DNA of 64,000 bases from Tridacna crocea (Eukaryota; Mollusca; Bivalvia; Cardiida; Cardiidae). Numbering within the stretch: position 1 is the stretch's first letter; each line of letters opens with the position of its first letter. Position numbers and translations under genes: made by a program. The notes below the pieces were generated by a model. The model worked only from the letters and a program-made list of their open reading frames with translations. It made no database searches and was not told the origin of the DNA. The stretch is from NCBI GenBank assembly GCA_943736015.1, contig OX031061.1, forward strand, positions 13,959,290 through 14,023,289, read 5' to 3'. Shown in pieces: positions 8,526 through 55,586 of the stretch.

Positions 8526-8754
8526 TTAACTCTTTACCAAATGACAAAATTTTAGACTGGTCCAAATTGAAAGCACATGCAGACCACAACATAAACGTGA
8601 CTCAAAAAGTGAAATTTGTTTCCGGCCGGGTAGAAAACATTGTGGAAAAAGGAGAAAATGCTGGTTATCAGCATTTTCTCCTTTTCCCACAATGTTTTCC
8701 AAAGGCTTCTATCTCCGAGTTGTAAAAACCAGAGATTGTTTGGTAAAGGGTTAG
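8526..8754 (+). mobile_element. H67 MITE, near complete
   Basis: TTAACTCTTTACCAAATGAC start and core GGAGAAAATGCTGGTTATC, where a single change breaks symmetry near the centre. The end is GGTAAAGGGTTAG. A fragment of the GATCAAGATCAGACTGCAC repeat (about 8498-8516) lies just outside. Confidence 0.8.
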
Positions 8755-9245: not shown

Positions 9246-9463
9246 TTAACCCTTTACTCATTTCTACACATTACTTGTAGGAGCCTTTGGAAAACATTGT
9301 GGCAAAAGGTGAAATTGCTCATGATGAGCAATTTCACCTTTTGCCACAATGTTTTCTATGCTATCAAAAGGTGTCATATACACATAAGAAACTGCTTCAT
9401 CCTTGCTGTTATTCAGGGTCAATTAGAGATACCATAGAAATGCCTTATGGGGTAAAGGCTTAA
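9246..9463 (+). mobile_element. H67-B MITE, complete
   Basis: 218 bp with TTAA at both ends (9246-9249 and 9460-9463) and termini CCCTTTACTCATTTC / GGGGTAAAGGC. The arms are unrelated to H67-A (for example TACTTGTAGGAGCCTTTGG and CACATAAGAAACTGCTTCAT). The core 9290-9356 is a perfect 67-bp palindrome, with GGCAAAAGGTGAAATTGCTC in place of GGGAAAAGGAGAAAATGCTG. A second copy lies reversed at 24436-24663. Confidence 0.85.
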
Positions 9464-11508: not shown

Positions 11509-11724
11509 TTAACACTTTCCTGAACGACAAATATCTTCCAAACTGAAAGACTTTGCAGATGACAATTTTAGATTTTGAGAAAATGGCAGAAAGTTCTCAA
11601 AAAGGGTAGAAAATACTGTGGGAAAAGGAGAAATTGCTCATTATGAGCAATTTCTCCTTTTACCACAGTGTTTTCAAAAGACTGCAGACAAGTAAAAACC
11701 AGGGCTTGTTTGGGAAAGGGTTAA
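11509..11724 (+). mobile_element. H67 MITE with intermediate core
   Basis: TTAA at 11509-11512 and 11721-11724. The 67-bp core (11609-11675) has the outer part of H67-A but the inner AAATTGCTCAT..ATGAGCAATTT of H67-B. The left arm is diverged. Confidence 0.75.
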
Positions 11725-16651: not shown

Positions 16652-16718
16652 GCAAAAAGGATCGACCAATGTCAGCCTGCGCGGACTGCGCAGGCTGACA
16701 TTGGTCGATACTTTTTGC
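16652..16718. repeat. GCAAAAAG..CTTTTTGC hairpin
   Basis: A nearly perfect inverted repeat: ATCGACCAATGTCAGCCTGC pairs with GCAGGCTGACATTGGTCGAT. It is followed by ATGCATCAAGCCCCCTTTT, a flank also present at 19421 and 59412. I recognise this GCGCAGGCTG type as common in bivalve DNA. Confidence 0.7.
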
Positions 16719-17440: not shown

Positions 17441-17525
17441 ATTTTCATGAAGCTGTAAGATTTTGAAAAGAGATTAAGATTTTGTCCATCACTTAAAATG
17501 TTTTCCCGCAAGTCATAGATTAATT

Positions 17526-17753
17526 TAACCCATTACCAAACAACAATATTTTAGACTGGTCCAAATCGAAAGCATTTGCAGATGACAAAATAAAAGTGAC
17601 TGAAAATTTAAAATTTGTATTGTGAAAGGTAGAAAACATGGTGGGAAAAGGAGAAAATGCTGGTTACCAGCATTTTCTCCTTTTCCCACCATGTTTTCTA
17701 AAGACTTCTTTCAAAGGGGCGTCAAAAGTAGGGATTGTGTGGTAAAGAGTTAA
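17526..17753 (+). mobile_element. H67 MITE, complete, private coupled substitution
   Basis: TTAA at both ends. The core 17632-17698 is a perfect 67-bp palindrome, with ACATGGTGGG and CCCACCATGT replacing ACATTGTGGG and CCCACAATGT. Confidence 0.9.
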
Positions 17754-20945: not shown

Positions 20946-21098
20946 TCGGAGATTGACTAGGGTTATGAAATTTCATGGGTGGATAGATCTCATCAAGGGG
21001 GAGTGCAGTGCGCAGGAATCATAACTCTTGCTTGCCTAATTTTTGAGTTATTGCCCTTTGTTGTTTTTCATACTTGAATTTTGTCCTGAGCATATCTC

Positions 21099-22515
21099 AA
21101 CAAGAGCGGCAAATTGTCGCAAGATACGCCCGTCTTACCCCAAGTTGTAAAGCTGGGGCATGCACCGGACAAAATTCAAATATGAAAAACGACAAAAAGC
21201 AATAACTCAAAAATTAAGCAAGCAAGAGTTATCATTCCTGTGCACTGCACTCCCCCTTGATGAGATCTATCCACCCATGAAATTTCATAACCCTAGCTAG
21301 TAAAGTTTTGGAGATATTCACCGGACAAAATTCAAGTATGAAAAACGGCAAAGGGCAATAACTCAAAAATTAAGCGAGCAAGAGTTAGGGTTCCTGTGCA
21401 CTGCACTCCCCCTTGATGAGATCTATCCACCCATGAAATTTCATAACCCTAGCTAGTATAGTTTTGGAGATATGCTCCGGACAAAATTCAGGTATGAAAA
21501 AACAACAAAGGGCAATAACTCAAAAATTAAGCGAGCAAGAGTTATGATTCCTGAGCACTGCACTCCCCCTTGATGAGATCTATCCACCCTTGAAATTTCA
21601 TAACCCTAGCTAGTATAATTTTGGAGATATTCACCGGACAAAATTCAAGTATGAAAAACGACAAAGGGCAATAACTCAAAAATAAAGCAAGCAAGAGTTA
21701 TGGTTCCTATGCACTGAACTCCCCCTTGATGAGATCTATCCACCCATGAAATTTCATAACCCTAGCTAGTATAGTTTTGGAGATATGCTCCGGACAAAAT
21801 TCAGGTATGAAAAACGACAAAGGGCAATAACTCAAAAATTAAGCGAGCAAGAGTTATGATTCCTGAGCACTGCACTCCCCCTTGATGAGATCTATCCACC
21901 CATGAAATTTCACGACCCTAGCTAGTATAGTTTTGGAGATGTTCACCGGACAAAATTCAAAGTATGAAAAACGGCAAAGGGCAATAACTCAAAAATAAAG
22001 CAAGCAAGAATTATGATTCCTGTGCACTGCACTCCCCCTTGATGAGATCTATCCACCCATGAAATTTCATAACCCTAGCTAGTATAGTTTTGGAGATATG
22101 CTCCGGACAAAATTCAGGTATGAAAAACTGCAAAGGGCAATAACTCAAAAATTAAGCGAGCAAGAGTTATTGTTTCTGTGCACTGTACTCCCCCTCGATG
22201 AGATCTATCCACCCATGAAATTTCGTAACCCTAGCTAGTATAGTTTTGGAGATATGCTCCGGACAAAATTCAAGTATGAAAAACGACAAAGGGCAATAAC
22301 TCAAAAATTAAGCAAGCAAGAGTTATGGTTCCTGTGCACTGCACTCCCCTTCGATGAGATCTATCCACCCATGAAATTTCGTAACCCTAGCTAGTATAGT
22401 TTTGGAGATATGCTCCGGACAAAGAACTGGACGCCGCCCGCCCGCCCGGACGCCCGCCCGCCCGCCCGCCACGGGTGATCCCATAATACGTCCCGTATTC
22501 GACGGATGTATAAAA
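21099..22515 (-). mobile_element. Complete reversed copy of the tandem-core element
   Basis: Read in reverse it starts with the GACGGG..CCCGTGGCGGGCGGGCG head near 22515 and has eight ~157-bp units (TTTTGGAGATAT recurs near 21305, 21461, 21618, 21774, 21931, 22088, 22246 and 22400). It ends with the GCATGCCCCAGC tail at 21099. The unit sequences are very similar to each other. Confidence 0.7.
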
Positions 22516-23538
22516 AGTATACTAGCTAGGGTTATGAAATTTCAGGGGTGGATAGATCTCATCATGGGGGAGTGCAGTGCCCAGGAATAATAACTCTTGC
22601 TTGCCTAATTTTTGAGTTATTGCCCTTTGTTGTTGTTCATACTTGAATTTTGTCCGGAGTATATCTTCAAAATTATACTAGCTATGGTTATGAAATTTCA
22701 TGGGTGGATAGATTTCATCAAGGGGGAGTGCAGTGCATAGGAATCATAACTCTTGCATGCCTAATTTTTGAGTTATTGCCCTTTGTTGTTTTTCATACTT
22801 GAATTTTGTCTGGAGCATATCTCCTAGCTAGGGTTATGAAATTTCATGGATGGATAGATCTTATCAAGGGGGAGTGCAGTGCCCAGGAATCATAACTCTT
22901 GCTCGCTTAACTTTTGAGTTATTGCCCTTTGTTGTTTTTCATACTTGAATTTTGTCTGGAGCATATCTCCAAAATTATACTAGCTAGGGTTATGAAATTT
23001 TATGGATGGATAGATCTCATCAAGGGGGAGTGCAGTGGTTAGGAACCATTACTCTTGCTTGCCTAATTTTTGAGTTATTGCCCTTTTTTGTTTTTCATTC
23101 TTGAATTTTGTCTGGAGCATATCTCCAAAAGTATACTAGCTAGGGTTATGAAATTTCATGGGTGGATAGATCTCATCAAGGGGGAGTGCAGTGCCCAGGA
23201 ATCGTAACTTTTGCTCACTTTAATTTTTAGTTAGTGCCCTTTGATGTTTTTCATACTTGAATTTTGTCTTGTGCATGCCCCAGCTTTACAACTTGGGGTA
23301 AGACGGGCATATCTTGCGACAATTTGCCGCTCTTGTTCATACTTGAATTTTGTCCGGTGCATGCCCCAGCTTTACAACTTGTGGTAAGACGGGTGTATCT
23401 TGTGACAATTTGCCACTCTCGTTTCATAATGATTTCCAAACGCTTCACAAAACAAATTTTAAATTTTCAGTTGCTTTTATTTTGTCTGCAATTGCTTTCA
23501 ATATGGACCAGCCGAAAATTTTGTTGTTTAGTAAAGAG

Positions 23539-24435: not shown

Positions 24436-24663
24436 TTAACCCTTTACCCCATAAGGCATTTCTATGGTATCTCTAATTCACCCTAAATAACAGCAAGGAT
24501 GAAGCCATTTCTTATGTGTATATGACACCTTTTGATAATGTAGAAAACATTGTGACAAAAGGTGAAATTGCTTGTCACAAGCAATTTCACCTTTTGCCAC
24601 AATGTTTTCCAAAGGCTCCTACAAGCAATTGTAGAAATGAGTATTTATGGAGTAAAGGGTAAA
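24436..24663 (-). mobile_element. H67-B MITE, near complete
   Basis: TTAACCCTTTACCCCATAAG start, and arms matching 9246-9463 in reverse (GGCATTTCTATGGTATCTCT; AGGATGAAGCCATTTCTTATG). The core 24543-24609 is 67 bp, with inner GCTTGTCACAAGC and a single mispair (GTGACAAAA against TTTTGCCAC). Confidence 0.8.
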
Positions 24664-29966: not shown

Positions 29967-30855
29967 TAACCCTTTACTGCACAATACTGAGTTTTAACAA
30001 CCCTTTCTCCATTTCTCTCAATGTTTTTGACCTTTTCAAAGATAGGTCCCATCATTTGAGACACAATAGATTTGTCATCTGCAAATGCTTTGAAATTCGA
30101 CCAGACTAGATTTATGTCTGGAAAGGGGGGGTACGGATAAAACAGGTTAGTCCACTGAGGTTTTGTCCTGGTGGGGTTTTGTCCTGGTGGAGTTTTGTCT
30201 AGTTGGGTTTTGTCCAGTGGAGTTTGTCTTGGTGGGGTTTTGTCCAGTGGAGTTTTGTCCTGGTGGGGTTTTGTCCATTTTGTCCTTGTGGAGTTTTGTC
30301 CTGGTGGGCTTTTGTCTTGGTGGGGTTTGTCCAGTGGAGTCTTGTCCTGGTGGGGTTTTGTCCAGTGGAGTTTTGTCCTGGCGGAGTTTTGTCTTGGTGG
30401 GGTTTTGTCTTGGTGGGGTTTTTGTCCTGGTGGAGTTTTGTCCTGGTGGGGTTTTGTTGTGGTGGGGTTTTGTCCAGTGGGGTTTTGTCCAGTGGGGTTT
30501 TTGTCCTGGTGGGGTTTTGTCCAGTGGGTTTTGTCCTCGTGGGGTTTTGTCCTCGTGGGGTTTTGTCCAGTGGAGTTTTGTCCTGGTGGGGTTTTGTCCA
30601 GTGGGGTTTTGTCCTGGTGGGGTTTTGTTGTGGTGGGGTTTTGTCCTGGTGGGGGTTTTGTTGTGGTGGGGTTTTGTCCAGTGGGGTTTTGTCCAGTGGA
30701 GTTTTGTCCTGGTGGGGTTTTCTCCAGTGGGGTTTTGTCCAGTGGAGTTTTGTCCTGGTGGGGTTTTGTCCAGTGGGGTTTTGTCCAGTGGAGTTTTGTC
30801 CCGGGGGGGTTTTGTCCTGGTGGGGTTTTGTCCTACACTCCTGGAAAAGAGTTAA
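29967..30855 (-). mobile_element. H67 MITE with a minisatellite in its terminus
   Basis: TTAACCCTTTACTGCACAATAC start. The left hairpin arm is deleted (CAACCCTTTCTCCATTTCTC). The left arm runs to GACTAGATTTATGTCTGGAA. The terminal AGAGTTAA is found only after the 680-bp minisatellite (GGAAAAGAGTTAA, TTAA 30852-30855). Confidence 0.6.
30157..30834 (+). repeat. 15-16-bp GT-rich minisatellite
   Basis: About 43 units alternate between GTCCTGGTGGGGTTTT (16 bp) and GTCCAGTGGGGTTTT (15 bp), with variants such as GTTGTGGTGGGGTTTT and GTCCTCGTGGGGTTTT. G and T dominate the + strand. Because the period is not a multiple of three and the unit lacks stops, several frames stay open for 230-249 codons on both strands; these are artefacts, not genes. 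Confidence 0.9.
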
Positions 30856-31080
30856 CCTTGTACCACACATAGAAAGTTCAGACTCTACCAAACTGGGAGC
30901 ATTTACCAATGACAAATTTATTGTGGCTCAAAATGGTGAACTTTTTCTATGAAAGGAAGTAAAAGATTGTGGGAAAAGGAGAAGAATGCTAGTTACCAGC
31001 ATTTTCTCCTTTTCCCATAATGTTTTCAAGTCTCCTTCATTGAGTTTGTTAAAACTGGGGATAGTTTTGTAAAGGGTTAA
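30852..31080 (+). mobile_element. H67 MITE, near complete
   Basis: TTAACCTTGTACCACACATAG start, core AATGCTAGTTACCAGC, and end TTGTAAAGGGTTAA. It shares its first TTAA with the preceding copy. Confidence 0.75.
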
Positions 31081-39505: not shown

Positions 39506-39734
39506 TTAACTCTTTACCACACGAGAAAATTTTAGACTGGTCCAAATTGAAAGCATTTGCAGACGACAAAATAAAAGTGACTGAAAAAGTGAAATTTGTT
39601 CTGGAAAGGGTAGAAAACACTGTGGGAAAAGGAGAAAATGCTGGTTACCAGCATTTTCTCCTTTTCCCACAGTGTTTTCAAAAGACTTCTTTCTCAGGGG
39701 CGTCAAAAGTAGGGATTGTGTGGTAATGGGTTTA
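39506..39734 (+). mobile_element. H67 MITE, complete
   Basis: TTAACTCTTTACCACACGAG start, a core with CACTGTGGG/CCCACAGTG pairing, and end GTGTGGTAATGGGTTTA. Very similar to the copies at 42019, 43798 and 63388. Confidence 0.9.
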
Positions 39735-43572: not shown

Positions 43573-43801
43573 TTAATACTTTACCATACAATGACAACTT
43601 TAAGCACCCCTGAGAAAGAAGCCTTTAGAAAACATTGTGGGAAAAGGAGACAGTGGTGGTAACCAGCATTTTCTCCTTTTCCCACAAAGTTTTCTTCCTT
43701 ATTTGAGCAAAATTGAACCATTTGAGCCACTTTGAAATTGTCATCTGCAAATGCTTTCAATTTGGATAGATCTGAAATTTTGCTATATGGTATAGGGTTA
43801 A
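43573..43801 (-). mobile_element. H67 MITE, near complete
   Basis: TTAATACTTTACCATACAAT start. The left half of the core is altered (GGAGACAGTGGTGGTAACC). It ends GGTATAGGGTTAA and shares the final TTAA with the next copy. Confidence 0.8.
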
Positions 43802-44026
43802 CCCATTACCACACAGCAGAATTTTAGACTGGTCCAAATTGAAAGCATTTGCAGACGACAAAATAAAAGTGACTGAAAATTTGGAATTTGTTCTGGGAAG
43901 GGTAGAAAACACTGTGGGAAAAGGAGAAAATGCTGGTTACCAGCATTTTCTCCTTTTCCCACAGTGTTTTCAAAAGGCTTCTTTCTCAGGGGCGTCAAAA
44001 GTAGGGATTGTGTGGTAATGGGTTAA
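43798..44026 (+). mobile_element. H67 MITE, best-preserved copy (family reference)
   Basis: 229 bp from TTAA to TTAA. Left terminus CCCATTACCACACAGCAG, left arm ATTTTAGACTGGTCCAAATT and GCAGACGACAAAATAAAAGT. The central palindrome 43905-43971 is perfect: 33-nt arms (GAAAACACTGTGGGAAAAGG, then AGAAAATGCTGGT) around one T at 43938. The right arm is AAAGGCTTCTTTCTCAGGGG and GTCAAAAGTAGGGATTGTGT, with terminus GGTAATGGG. TTAA duplication and a CCC start fit piggyBac-type MITEs. No protein is encoded; small frames reading like GKGENAGYQHFLLFPQCF recur only because the hairpin recurs. Confidence 0.9.
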
Positions 44027-48540: not shown

Positions 48541-50100
48541 AGATACAGATACAGATACAGATATTTTATTGACAAGCACAGAGTACATAGTCATAGCAAC
48601 ATTCTAAATATGATAAAGAAAAATGTCAAACGTCAATGTCTATAATAATTTATGGAAAACAAAAGAAAACAGAGATAGGAAACAGAAATTTATCCTCACA
48701 CACACACATCCAAACACACACCCACACCTACTCGCACACCCACACACACAATCTGAATTATGCTTTAAAGGAAACATTATGTGTTTGGTTTTAGAGACGA
48801 ACTCTTAATCAGCAGTCAATTGATGCGTGTATGAAGTTCTTTCAAAGAGGGCGTTTTTCACATAGTTAGCCAAATTGAAAATCTCATTTTTATTTGTTGA
48901 ATTTAAAAGTTCTAAAAGTTTATAGGTACTTGGTCTTATACGATAATATTCTTTAATATATTTTTTTCTTAAATGATCAAAAAACAGACATTTTAATACG
49001 AAATGAAATTCATCTTCCGTTTCTCCCGAGGTACAGAGGAGACATACTCGTTCATTTCTCGGAATTCTATTTTCACTAAAACGACAAGTTTGAATTCTTA
49101 AGGAATGAGAGGAAGTTCTAAGCCTAGTTATAAAGAATCTGAGATCAGGCGGCAGAATGTCCAAATATAATTCATATTGTAACGTATCTTTCAAATATTT
49201 ATAGACTTGTAAGGAAGAAGCATTTGCAATCAAAGAAAAACAACTTTGGGTATAATTATCAATAAGTCGCTGTCTAAAATATTGTACAAAATTTTTACCG
49301 TTAACTGAAAATGGATTTTCCCATATATTGGAAAAGCCATGCTCATTCAACATACTTTTAACGTCTGAAACCCAATTTCTGCAGCCTTTCTCACACTGTT
49401 CATGACTAAGCCTATACACTGTTTTCAAAATAATATTTTCTGTAGACTTTAACTTAAACCAGTACTTTAGAATTTGGACATATCTATTTATGAATAAAGG
49501 GTATCTACCAAGTTCTGCATATACAACTGCATTACATGTACTTTGCCTAACATTTAGAATCCTTTTACAAAATTTCATATGTATACGTTCAATAGATTTT
49601 GACTTCGTATAGCCCCAAATTGGTGCTGCGTAACTTAAAATTGATCCTACGAACGAATCAAATAGTTGGCATAATATTTTTGGTTTCATTTTATATTTGC
49701 TGCAATTTGTCAATAATACATTAAGGGCCTTCAGTGCTTTACCAGTAATTTGTTCTTGATTGTTGCAAAAATTGCCTGTATATGAAAAAACAGTCCCTAA
49801 GTAATTAAAGTGATCCACGTTTTCAAGTACTATATTATTATATGTAAAACATTCATTGGGTAAAATTCCTTTTTTGAGAAATACCATTACCTTAGTTTTT
49901 TGTGTATTTACTTCTAGTCCCCATGTTTGACAGTATTCATACAATTTATTTAAACTATTTTGTAGGTCCTTGGGGGAATTTCCAAATATGACTAGGTCGT
50001 CTGCAAAAAGTAACAATATTATTTCTAATTCATCAATTTGTATACCCGAGTTGAAATCACCCTGAAGGAAAAGTTCATAGTTAACATAGTGGACCCATAA
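48536..50100 (-). mobile_element. 5'-truncated non-LTR retrotransposon (LINE)
   Basis: Read on the minus strand: reverse transcriptase coding region, ~260-bp 3' UTR containing an imperfect (CA)n/(GT)n patch (48694-48752 on +), AATAAA, then an (ATCTGT)n tail at 48536-48565. The 5' end is lost near 50100, as expected from incomplete target-primed reverse transcription. Clade not assigned. Confidence 0.8.
48805..50095 (-). pseudogene. C-terminal reverse transcriptase fragment of a LINE
   Basis: The frame is open from about 50095 to a stop at 48805 and encodes about 430 residues. The RT catalytic motif LLLFADDLVIF (the F/YADD box of domain 5) lies near the upstream end, followed by QKTKVMVF and YLGTVFSYTGNF (typical of the region after the palm in jockey/CR1-like RTs). 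Then come the thumb and a C-terminal CX2C-X9-HX4C cluster (CLLC..HFVLKC). The fingers, the first palm motifs and the endonuclease are absent. The remaining frame has no internal stop, so the insertion is fairly young, but it cannot encode a complete enzyme. No native start codon is visible because of the truncation. Confidence 0.8.
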
Positions 50101-55182: not shown

Positions 55183-55411
55183 TTAACCTTTTACCAAACA
55201 ATCCAGGGGGGGGGGGGGGGGGGGTCAAAACTCTCAGAAAGAAGCCTTCTGAAAACATTGTGGGAAAAGGAGAAAATGCTGGTAACCAGCATTTTCTCCT
55301 TTTCCCACAAGGTTTTCTATGCTTTCCAAAATAAATTTCAATTTTTAAGTCACATTGATCTGCCGTTACACTTCTAATTTGAACTGGTCTAAAATTATGT
55401 TGTTTGGTTAA
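55183..55411 (-). mobile_element. H67 MITE with a G-run in its right arm
   Basis: TTAACCTTTTACCAAACAATCC start, then 19 consecutive G (55206-55224), core AAAATGCTGGTAACCAGC, and an end shortened to TGTTTGGTTAA. It shares TTAA with the next copy. Confidence 0.75.
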
Positions 55412-55586
55412 CCCATTACCACACAATCCCTACTTTTGACGACCCTGAGAAAGAAGCCTTTTGAAAACACTGTGTTTTCTACCCTTCCCAGAACAAATTT
55501 CAATTTTTCAGTCACTTTTATTTTGTCGTCTGCAAATGCTTTCAATTTGGACCAGTCTAAAATTTTATCGTGTGGTAAAGAGTTAA
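55408..55586 (-). mobile_element. H67 MITE with hairpin collapsed to a stub
   Basis: TTAACCCATTACCACACAATC start, complete right and left arms, and end GTGTGGTAAAGAGTTAA. The 67-bp palindrome is reduced to GAAAACACTGTGTTTTC (55463-55479). Confidence 0.85.

Follow-up and report, generated by a model that had tools for sequence, protein, structure and literature searches.

The window analysed here, a stretch of 64,000 nucleotides on contig OX031061.1 of the Tridacna crocea genome (1,048,827,098 bases, or 1.05 Gb, in 31 contigs), carries at 9290–9356 a palindrome, the H67-B core, within a short mobile element (Table 1). The palindrome is perfect, with arms of 33 bases (9290–9322 and 9324–9356) on either side of a single centre base at 9323, and the sequence-only reading was therefore right in describing a perfect palindrome of 67 bp. 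It had also counted five mirrored substitutions relative to the core of the A family, and these are indeed found against the A consensus, at positions 14, 21, 26, 31 and 32 of both arms. Compared with the consensus of its own family, B, the copy differs solely at arm position 32, again in both arms, which implies that four of the five differences belong to the family and one to a sub-lineage. Folded as single-stranded DNA, the palindrome reaches −37.6 kcal/mol, compared with −7.84 ± 2.05 kcal/mol for 200 shuffles (z −14.5). With up to two mismatches allowed, the window contains 132 occurrences of the 13-base arm end, as against 4.3 ± 2.2 in shuffled sequence, so that chance is excluded. A perfect palindrome is atypical: of the 66 copies in the window whose arms could both be aligned (those, from a total of 93, with no more than six gap columns in the palindrome), only 4 have one, and it is absent from all 16 B copies retrieved otherwise than by likeness to the copy at 9290.

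Table 1. The H67-B element, its palindrome and related copies in the window
Feature	Coordinates	Strand	Description
H67-B element	9246..9463	-	Family B member, a piggyBac-like MITE flanked by TTAA (9246–9249 and 9460–9463); short deletion close to one of its ends; aligned to the B consensus
67-bp perfect palindrome	9290..9356	.	H67-B core; arms, centre, fold and consensus comparison as in the text
A family copy adjoining the H67-B element	8526..8753	+	Palindrome 8633–8699, two mismatched pairs
A′ family copy	11509..11724	+	Palindrome 11609–11675
A family copy	17525..17753	+	Perfect palindrome 17632–17698, private mirrored change at arm position 9
Second window B element	24436..24663	+	Palindrome 24543–24609, one mismatch at arm position 13, loop TGT.ACA
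A family copy, ACT subfamily	39506..39732	+	Perfect palindrome 39613–39679
A family copy, ACT subfamily	43798..44026	+	Perfect palindrome 43905–43971

The H67-B core is the internal palindrome of a non-autonomous, TTAA-flanked piggyBac-like MITE of about 229 bp, whose family, B, is one of a related group of four or more (A, A′, B and D). The consensuses of A, its ACT subfamily, A′, B and D are 228–230 bp long, start with TTAACYCTTT and finish with its inverted form; the terminal inverted repeats are CCCTTTAC.../...GTAAAGGG in B and CCCTTTCCCAAAC/GTTTGGGAAAGGG in A′, and A starts with CYCTTTACC. The combination of TTAA and CCC ends characterises piggyBac-like elements. Of the 29 copies in the window whose alignment reaches both ends, 24 have TTAA at each, a count made on an alignment whose consensus itself includes TTAA. 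The window holds 93 copies or fragments of the 229-bp consensus, and with the B element as query the genome gave 3895 first-look candidates, of which the best 40 were scored and showed 94–100% identity. Elements cover 26% of the window, 30% of 20 sampled stretches of 9.9 kb (a non-random sample, as these were picked around B copies) and 8% of 18 kb beside piggyBac genes. The A and B samples described below were both drawn around matches to the query, within about 269 kb of sampled sequence. One copy, at 55408–55586, is 97% identical to the A consensus over the aligned bases and has its palindrome reduced to a short remnant, GAAAACACAGTGTTTTC, which fits the outcome of a palindrome-mediated deletion. 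A second palindrome of 67 bp, unrelated and nearly perfect (matched in 31 of 33 pairs), lies at 16652–16718 and has four weaker relatives in the sampled loci (L027 8085 and 9576, L013 7620 and L021 4195).

The genome contains 118 matches to PF13843, the piggyBac transposase family. Paired ends were located in five of the ten piggyBac elements whose outer parts were read, and these were TTAACCCATTTATGCCT, TTAACCCTTTATATAC, TTAACCCTTTCAGYGC and, in two elements, TTAACCCTAGTCATGC; no element starting with CCCTTTACC was found among the ten sampled, with paired ends located in five of them only. That the palindrome is part of autonomous piggyBac elements was considered, and none was present in the parts read of the five elements with paired ends. 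Palindromes that lie beside the piggyBac elements C1, C13 and C15 align to the MITE consensuses, although the copy beside C15, an element whose ends were not located, may be nested within it. A nested insertion of a small palindromic element was rejected, because four families whose lengths are almost the same all carry the palindrome at one location.

Protein-coding constraint on the palindrome was also considered. A frame is open through the palindrome in one A copy (43800–44026) and, after a stop, in one B copy (24438–24663). The A peptide, which may resemble predicted proteins of other animals, matched no Pfam family at the cut-off (E 0.11), and a full-text literature search with nine of its letters found no paper. 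This reading was rejected on the stop that D, as read by eye, has next to the palindrome, and on a Pfam E value of 0.11 obtained for the A peptide only. Elsewhere in the window, a 403-residue frame on the minus strand (48805–50016) has a partial match to reverse transcriptase (PF00078, E 2.5 × 10−10) and is a retroelement remnant; four overlapping frames of 230–249 residues on both strands (30163–30952) appear as from a repetitive stretch; and long inverted repeats with arms of 112–442 nucleotides, 90–96% complementary, are clustered at 20957–23265.

Mirrored change between lineages is real. The palindrome begins at base 107–109 in A, A′, B and D, and the flanks differ among these families. 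All five consensus palindromes (A, here the ATT subfamily, ACT, A′, B and D) are perfect, with A′ based on 10 aligned copies and D on two copies only, for which sites differing between the two were given the base found in the other families, a choice that favours agreement. The consensus palindromes differ at arm positions 8, 14, 21, 26 and 31, and every difference is mirrored, with no one-arm differences; the rough chance that ten randomly placed changes would form five matching pairs is 5 × 10−9. Positions 14 and 21 distinguish B from the other consensuses and positions 26 and 31 distinguish A and ACT. The palindrome is also better kept than its surroundings between A and A′ (61 of 67 bases identical, compared with 84 of 100 aligned bases in one flank and 40 of 55 in the other), and the flanks of A and B are barely alignable, scoring 14 and 25 (shuffled −9 ± 8 and −7 ± 6) compared with 98 for the palindromes. 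In four of the five lineage changes the two arms exchange the members of the pair (A-T for T-A or G-C for C-G), as against 24% of 972 one-arm changes; this looks like preservation of stem composition, on small numbers. The sequence-only reading had argued from coupled change to either selection on the folded form or copying of one arm from the other, and its premise of coupling stands between lineages but not within families.

Position 32 is a different case. The B consensus loop, CGT.ACG, has one CpG in each arm, and the copy at 9290 has CAT.ATG. Among 56 B copies the loop states were CG.CG in 26, CA.TG in 16 (a frequency partly inflated by retrieval through likeness to the copy at 9290), CA.CG in six, TG.TG in two and TG.CA in two, with CG.TG, TG.CG, CA.CA and CG.CA once each. 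The 16 copies not retrieved through that likeness comprised nine CG.CG, two TG.CA and one each of CA.CG, TG.TG, CG.TG, CA.CA and CG.CA; hence both CpGs are kept in nine, doubly decayed with a match in two, doubly decayed with a mismatch in two and singly decayed in three. The equality of matched and mismatched double decay fits independent decay of the two CpGs, although numbers are small. Position 32 is thus a CpG that has decayed on each arm, with intermediates and mismatched combinations present, and no family difference. It requires neither selection on the fold nor copying between arms, since CpG decay on two arms yields the mirrored state, and it serves as a caution that a mirrored change may be no more than this.

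Mutation alone, in the form of CpG decay on both arms together with coincidence, accounts for the loop states at position 32 but is hardly credible for the palindrome at large. Positions 14, 21 and 26 are non-CpG in all five consensuses, and their mirrored family differences refute mutation alone as the whole account; at position 31, A and the rest differ as G against C, on both arms.

Hundreds of sampled copies of varied age allow lineage selection, in-place correction and plain mutation to be separated by counting. In the A-like sample (264 of 347 copies, retained for having no more than eight gap columns, about 10 of them A′-like) there were 1085 one-arm changes, together with double changes of which 111 were of the same kind (35.7 expected from column frequencies) and 64 of different kinds. 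The biggest same-kind excesses were at the diagnostic sites, position 8 (31 C/C), position 26 (10 T/T) and position 31 (7 C/C and 4 T/T). With every position included, matches make up 111 of the 175 double changes, compared with 74.9 expected (z 5.6); when positions 8, 26 and 31 are left out, 58 of 118 match, compared with 52.7 expected (z 1.0). The number of double changes away from the diagnostic positions is itself 118, where copy age and position predict 102.3, and true arm pairs carry 15.2 per 1000 cells compared with 7.4–11.0 in slid pairs, a comparison that gives an upper bound on residual coupling because slid pairs do not share position rates. A small residual excess of matched double changes may therefore be present in resident A-like copies.

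The B family gave a similar picture. Of 60 matches, two were D copies and two were partial, leaving 56 for the loop-state, divergence and one-arm or coupled counts (57 entered the analysis shared with the A age classes). Outside positions 13, 31 and 32, the 56 copies have 30 one-arm changes and no coupled ones; the 16 unselected copies have 17 one-arm changes and no double changes. The sequence-only reading had itself named the frequency of one-arm changes relative to independence as the test of coupling, and within families both this count and the matched pairs of the A-like copies go against it. Perfect palindromes were counted in age classes of the 226 A-like copies that had 100 or more flank columns. 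Those that are perfect in the strict sense number 19 (21 when gapped pairs are ignored) and are distributed, by rising flank divergence, as 6 of 21, 8 of 38, 1 of 44, 3 of 44 and 1 of 79. The 21 copies that are perfect over ungapped pairs compare with 21.1 from a negative-binomial fit and 13.5 from a Poisson fit. Inserted copies thus become mismatched through changes in single arms, and repair templated by the partner arm has left little trace or none; if resident copies do have one arm rewritten after the other, this happens rarely at most.

The divergence of arms and flanks gives a more divided result. In the 193 A-like copies with at least 130 flank columns, the ratio of arms to flanks is 0.43 for total divergence and 1.07 for rare variants, which indicates that most of the saving concerns variants that lineages have in common. 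For rare variants the ratio falls to 0.73 in 56 young A copies and to 0.42 in the 56 B copies, and this reduction is not explained by lineage selection alone. It is among the observations that would favour correction between the arms of resident copies, by template switching in replication or by gene conversion, as are the number of doubly changed pairs, the rate in true relative to slid pairs (which, again, share no position rates) and the A copy at 17632–17698, which is perfect and has a private mirrored change with no mismatch. However, the doubly changed pairs match scarcely more often than expected, coupled changes are absent from the B copies, and perfect copies are not in excess of the negative-binomial fit, though they exceed the Poisson one. 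As the main force, such correction is unsupported by the matched-pair, perfect-copy and B-copy counts; it is already disfavoured, and we regard it as very improbable.

Symmetry mostly belongs to the spreading lineages, and it is not absolute. Seven mirrored variants occur in at least four A copies, and those at positions 8, 26 and 31 are tied to flank variants (p 5 × 10−16, 5 × 10−8 and 5 × 10−8), whereas the other four show no such tie (p values of 0.01 or worse). Among 115 one-arm A variants, the best two flank ties have p values of 1.7 × 10−6 and 2.6 × 10−6 in about 29,000 comparisons, and these two may mark small one-arm lineages. An exception is arm position 13, which in the 56 B copies is mismatched one way in 20 and the other way in one. 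The two arms present the same sequence context, so this 20:1 bias points to inheritance and not to a mutational hot spot; a flank tree of B, drawn up for dating the variant, had 18 changes and gave no signal. Since 20 of 56 B copies share this one-arm variant, imperfect copies evidently do spread.

Decay at random does not yield mirrored changes at the rate needed, and nor do resident copies, from which we infer that mirroring arises in copies that are still transposing. That it does so through selection on the dyad or the fold, during mobilisation of the amplifying lineages, has in our estimation about an even chance of being correct. In its likeliest step, selection during mobilisation would favour a two-fold symmetric site, which might be either a duplex bound by a dimeric transposase or an extruded hairpin; copies with one mismatch would be tolerated for a time, and symmetric lineages would prevail in the long term. 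There is a precedent in the piggyBac and piggyBat transposases, which bind palindromes through the two C-terminal domains of the dimer (PMC11707139). Selection at mobilisation is favoured by the mirrored consensus differences, five with no one-arm counterpart, by the one-arm decay of resident copies and by the flank-tied mirrored variants at positions 8, 26 and 31. Against it stand the ten sampled piggyBac elements, five of them with paired ends located, which include no mobiliser with matching ends, the possible one-arm A lineages and the fewer rare arm variants in B and young A; copies can, moreover, spread without a perfect palindrome, as the position-13 variant shows. Were the palindrome a transposase dyad or a hairpin used in movement, this may help to explain how a 229-bp element covers at least a quarter of the sampled stretches.

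Mirrored pairs might instead be made in one step, if a hairpin or template-switch intermediate tied to mobilisation rewrote one arm from the other. This is possible, though we think it rather unlikely. It would give lineage differences that are mirrored and none that are one-armed, and independent decay of resident copies is expected if the step occurs only at birth. The centre base of the A copies also changes as inversion of the centre would have it, on small numbers: T>A is seen in 23 of 216 and T>C in 11 of 216, compared with 15 and 21 of 715 at other TTA sites. Template switching has been proposed as a source of compensatory changes in RNA genes (PMC8794818). However, the position-13 mismatch reached 20 of 56 B copies uncorrected, and plain copying of random mutations would not favour the pair swaps seen in four of the five lineage changes, although a sample of five events is small. 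Such copying could amount to proof-reading at birth, in which a hairpin or template-switched form, with one arm templating the other, would arise at each mobilisation, so that new copies are matched, lineages evolve only by mirrored pairs and residents decay freely. We consider this stronger version unlikely; under it, the position-13 lineage would be a failed or incomplete step.

Selection could also act on a transcribed RNA hairpin, such as a small-RNA precursor, and the long and stable stem (the fold energy given above was obtained with DNA parameters) is what this would call for. No Rfam match was found in the window at the gathering score, however, and the palindrome is identical on both strands, so that pairing evidence cannot name the strand. 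We judge an RNA hairpin to be quite improbable and retain selection on the dyad or fold at mobilisation as the preferred reading.

No published account of the H67 element was found in the open-licence literature, among the matches listed. The core patterns had no match in viral contigs, in genome contigs or in phage records; one match to a looser pattern (L001) was non-palindromic and was taken as chance. In its TTAA at both ends (24 of 29 copies), its CCCTTT... ends, its small size and its want of a transposase, the H67 element resembles MITEs of the piggyBac superfamily. It differs from them in the 67-bp internal palindrome, symmetric across four families, and in having no same-ended partner among the ten elements sampled, of which five had paired ends located. 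Bacterial REPINs offer a parallel in kind of change, and a further precedent for selection on the dyad or fold, being small, mobile hairpin DNA for which compensatory changes in the two sides of the hairpin are reportedly common (PMC3116915). REPINs are moved by RAYT proteins and have short, imperfect palindromes in bacteria, whereas H67 has TTAA ends and lives in an animal genome of 1.05 Gb. Template-switch correction of quasi-palindromes and RNA stems (PMC8794818) would likewise make mirrored changes in one step, but little or no trace of it is seen in resident H67 copies. The binding sites of piggyBac and piggyBat share with H67 a two-fold symmetric DNA, which is bound there by paired domains of the transposase dimer (PMC11707139). 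Those sites are 19 bp or imperfect and lie near the ends, whereas the H67 palindrome measures 67 bp, is internal and has a perfect consensus, with binding that is putative.
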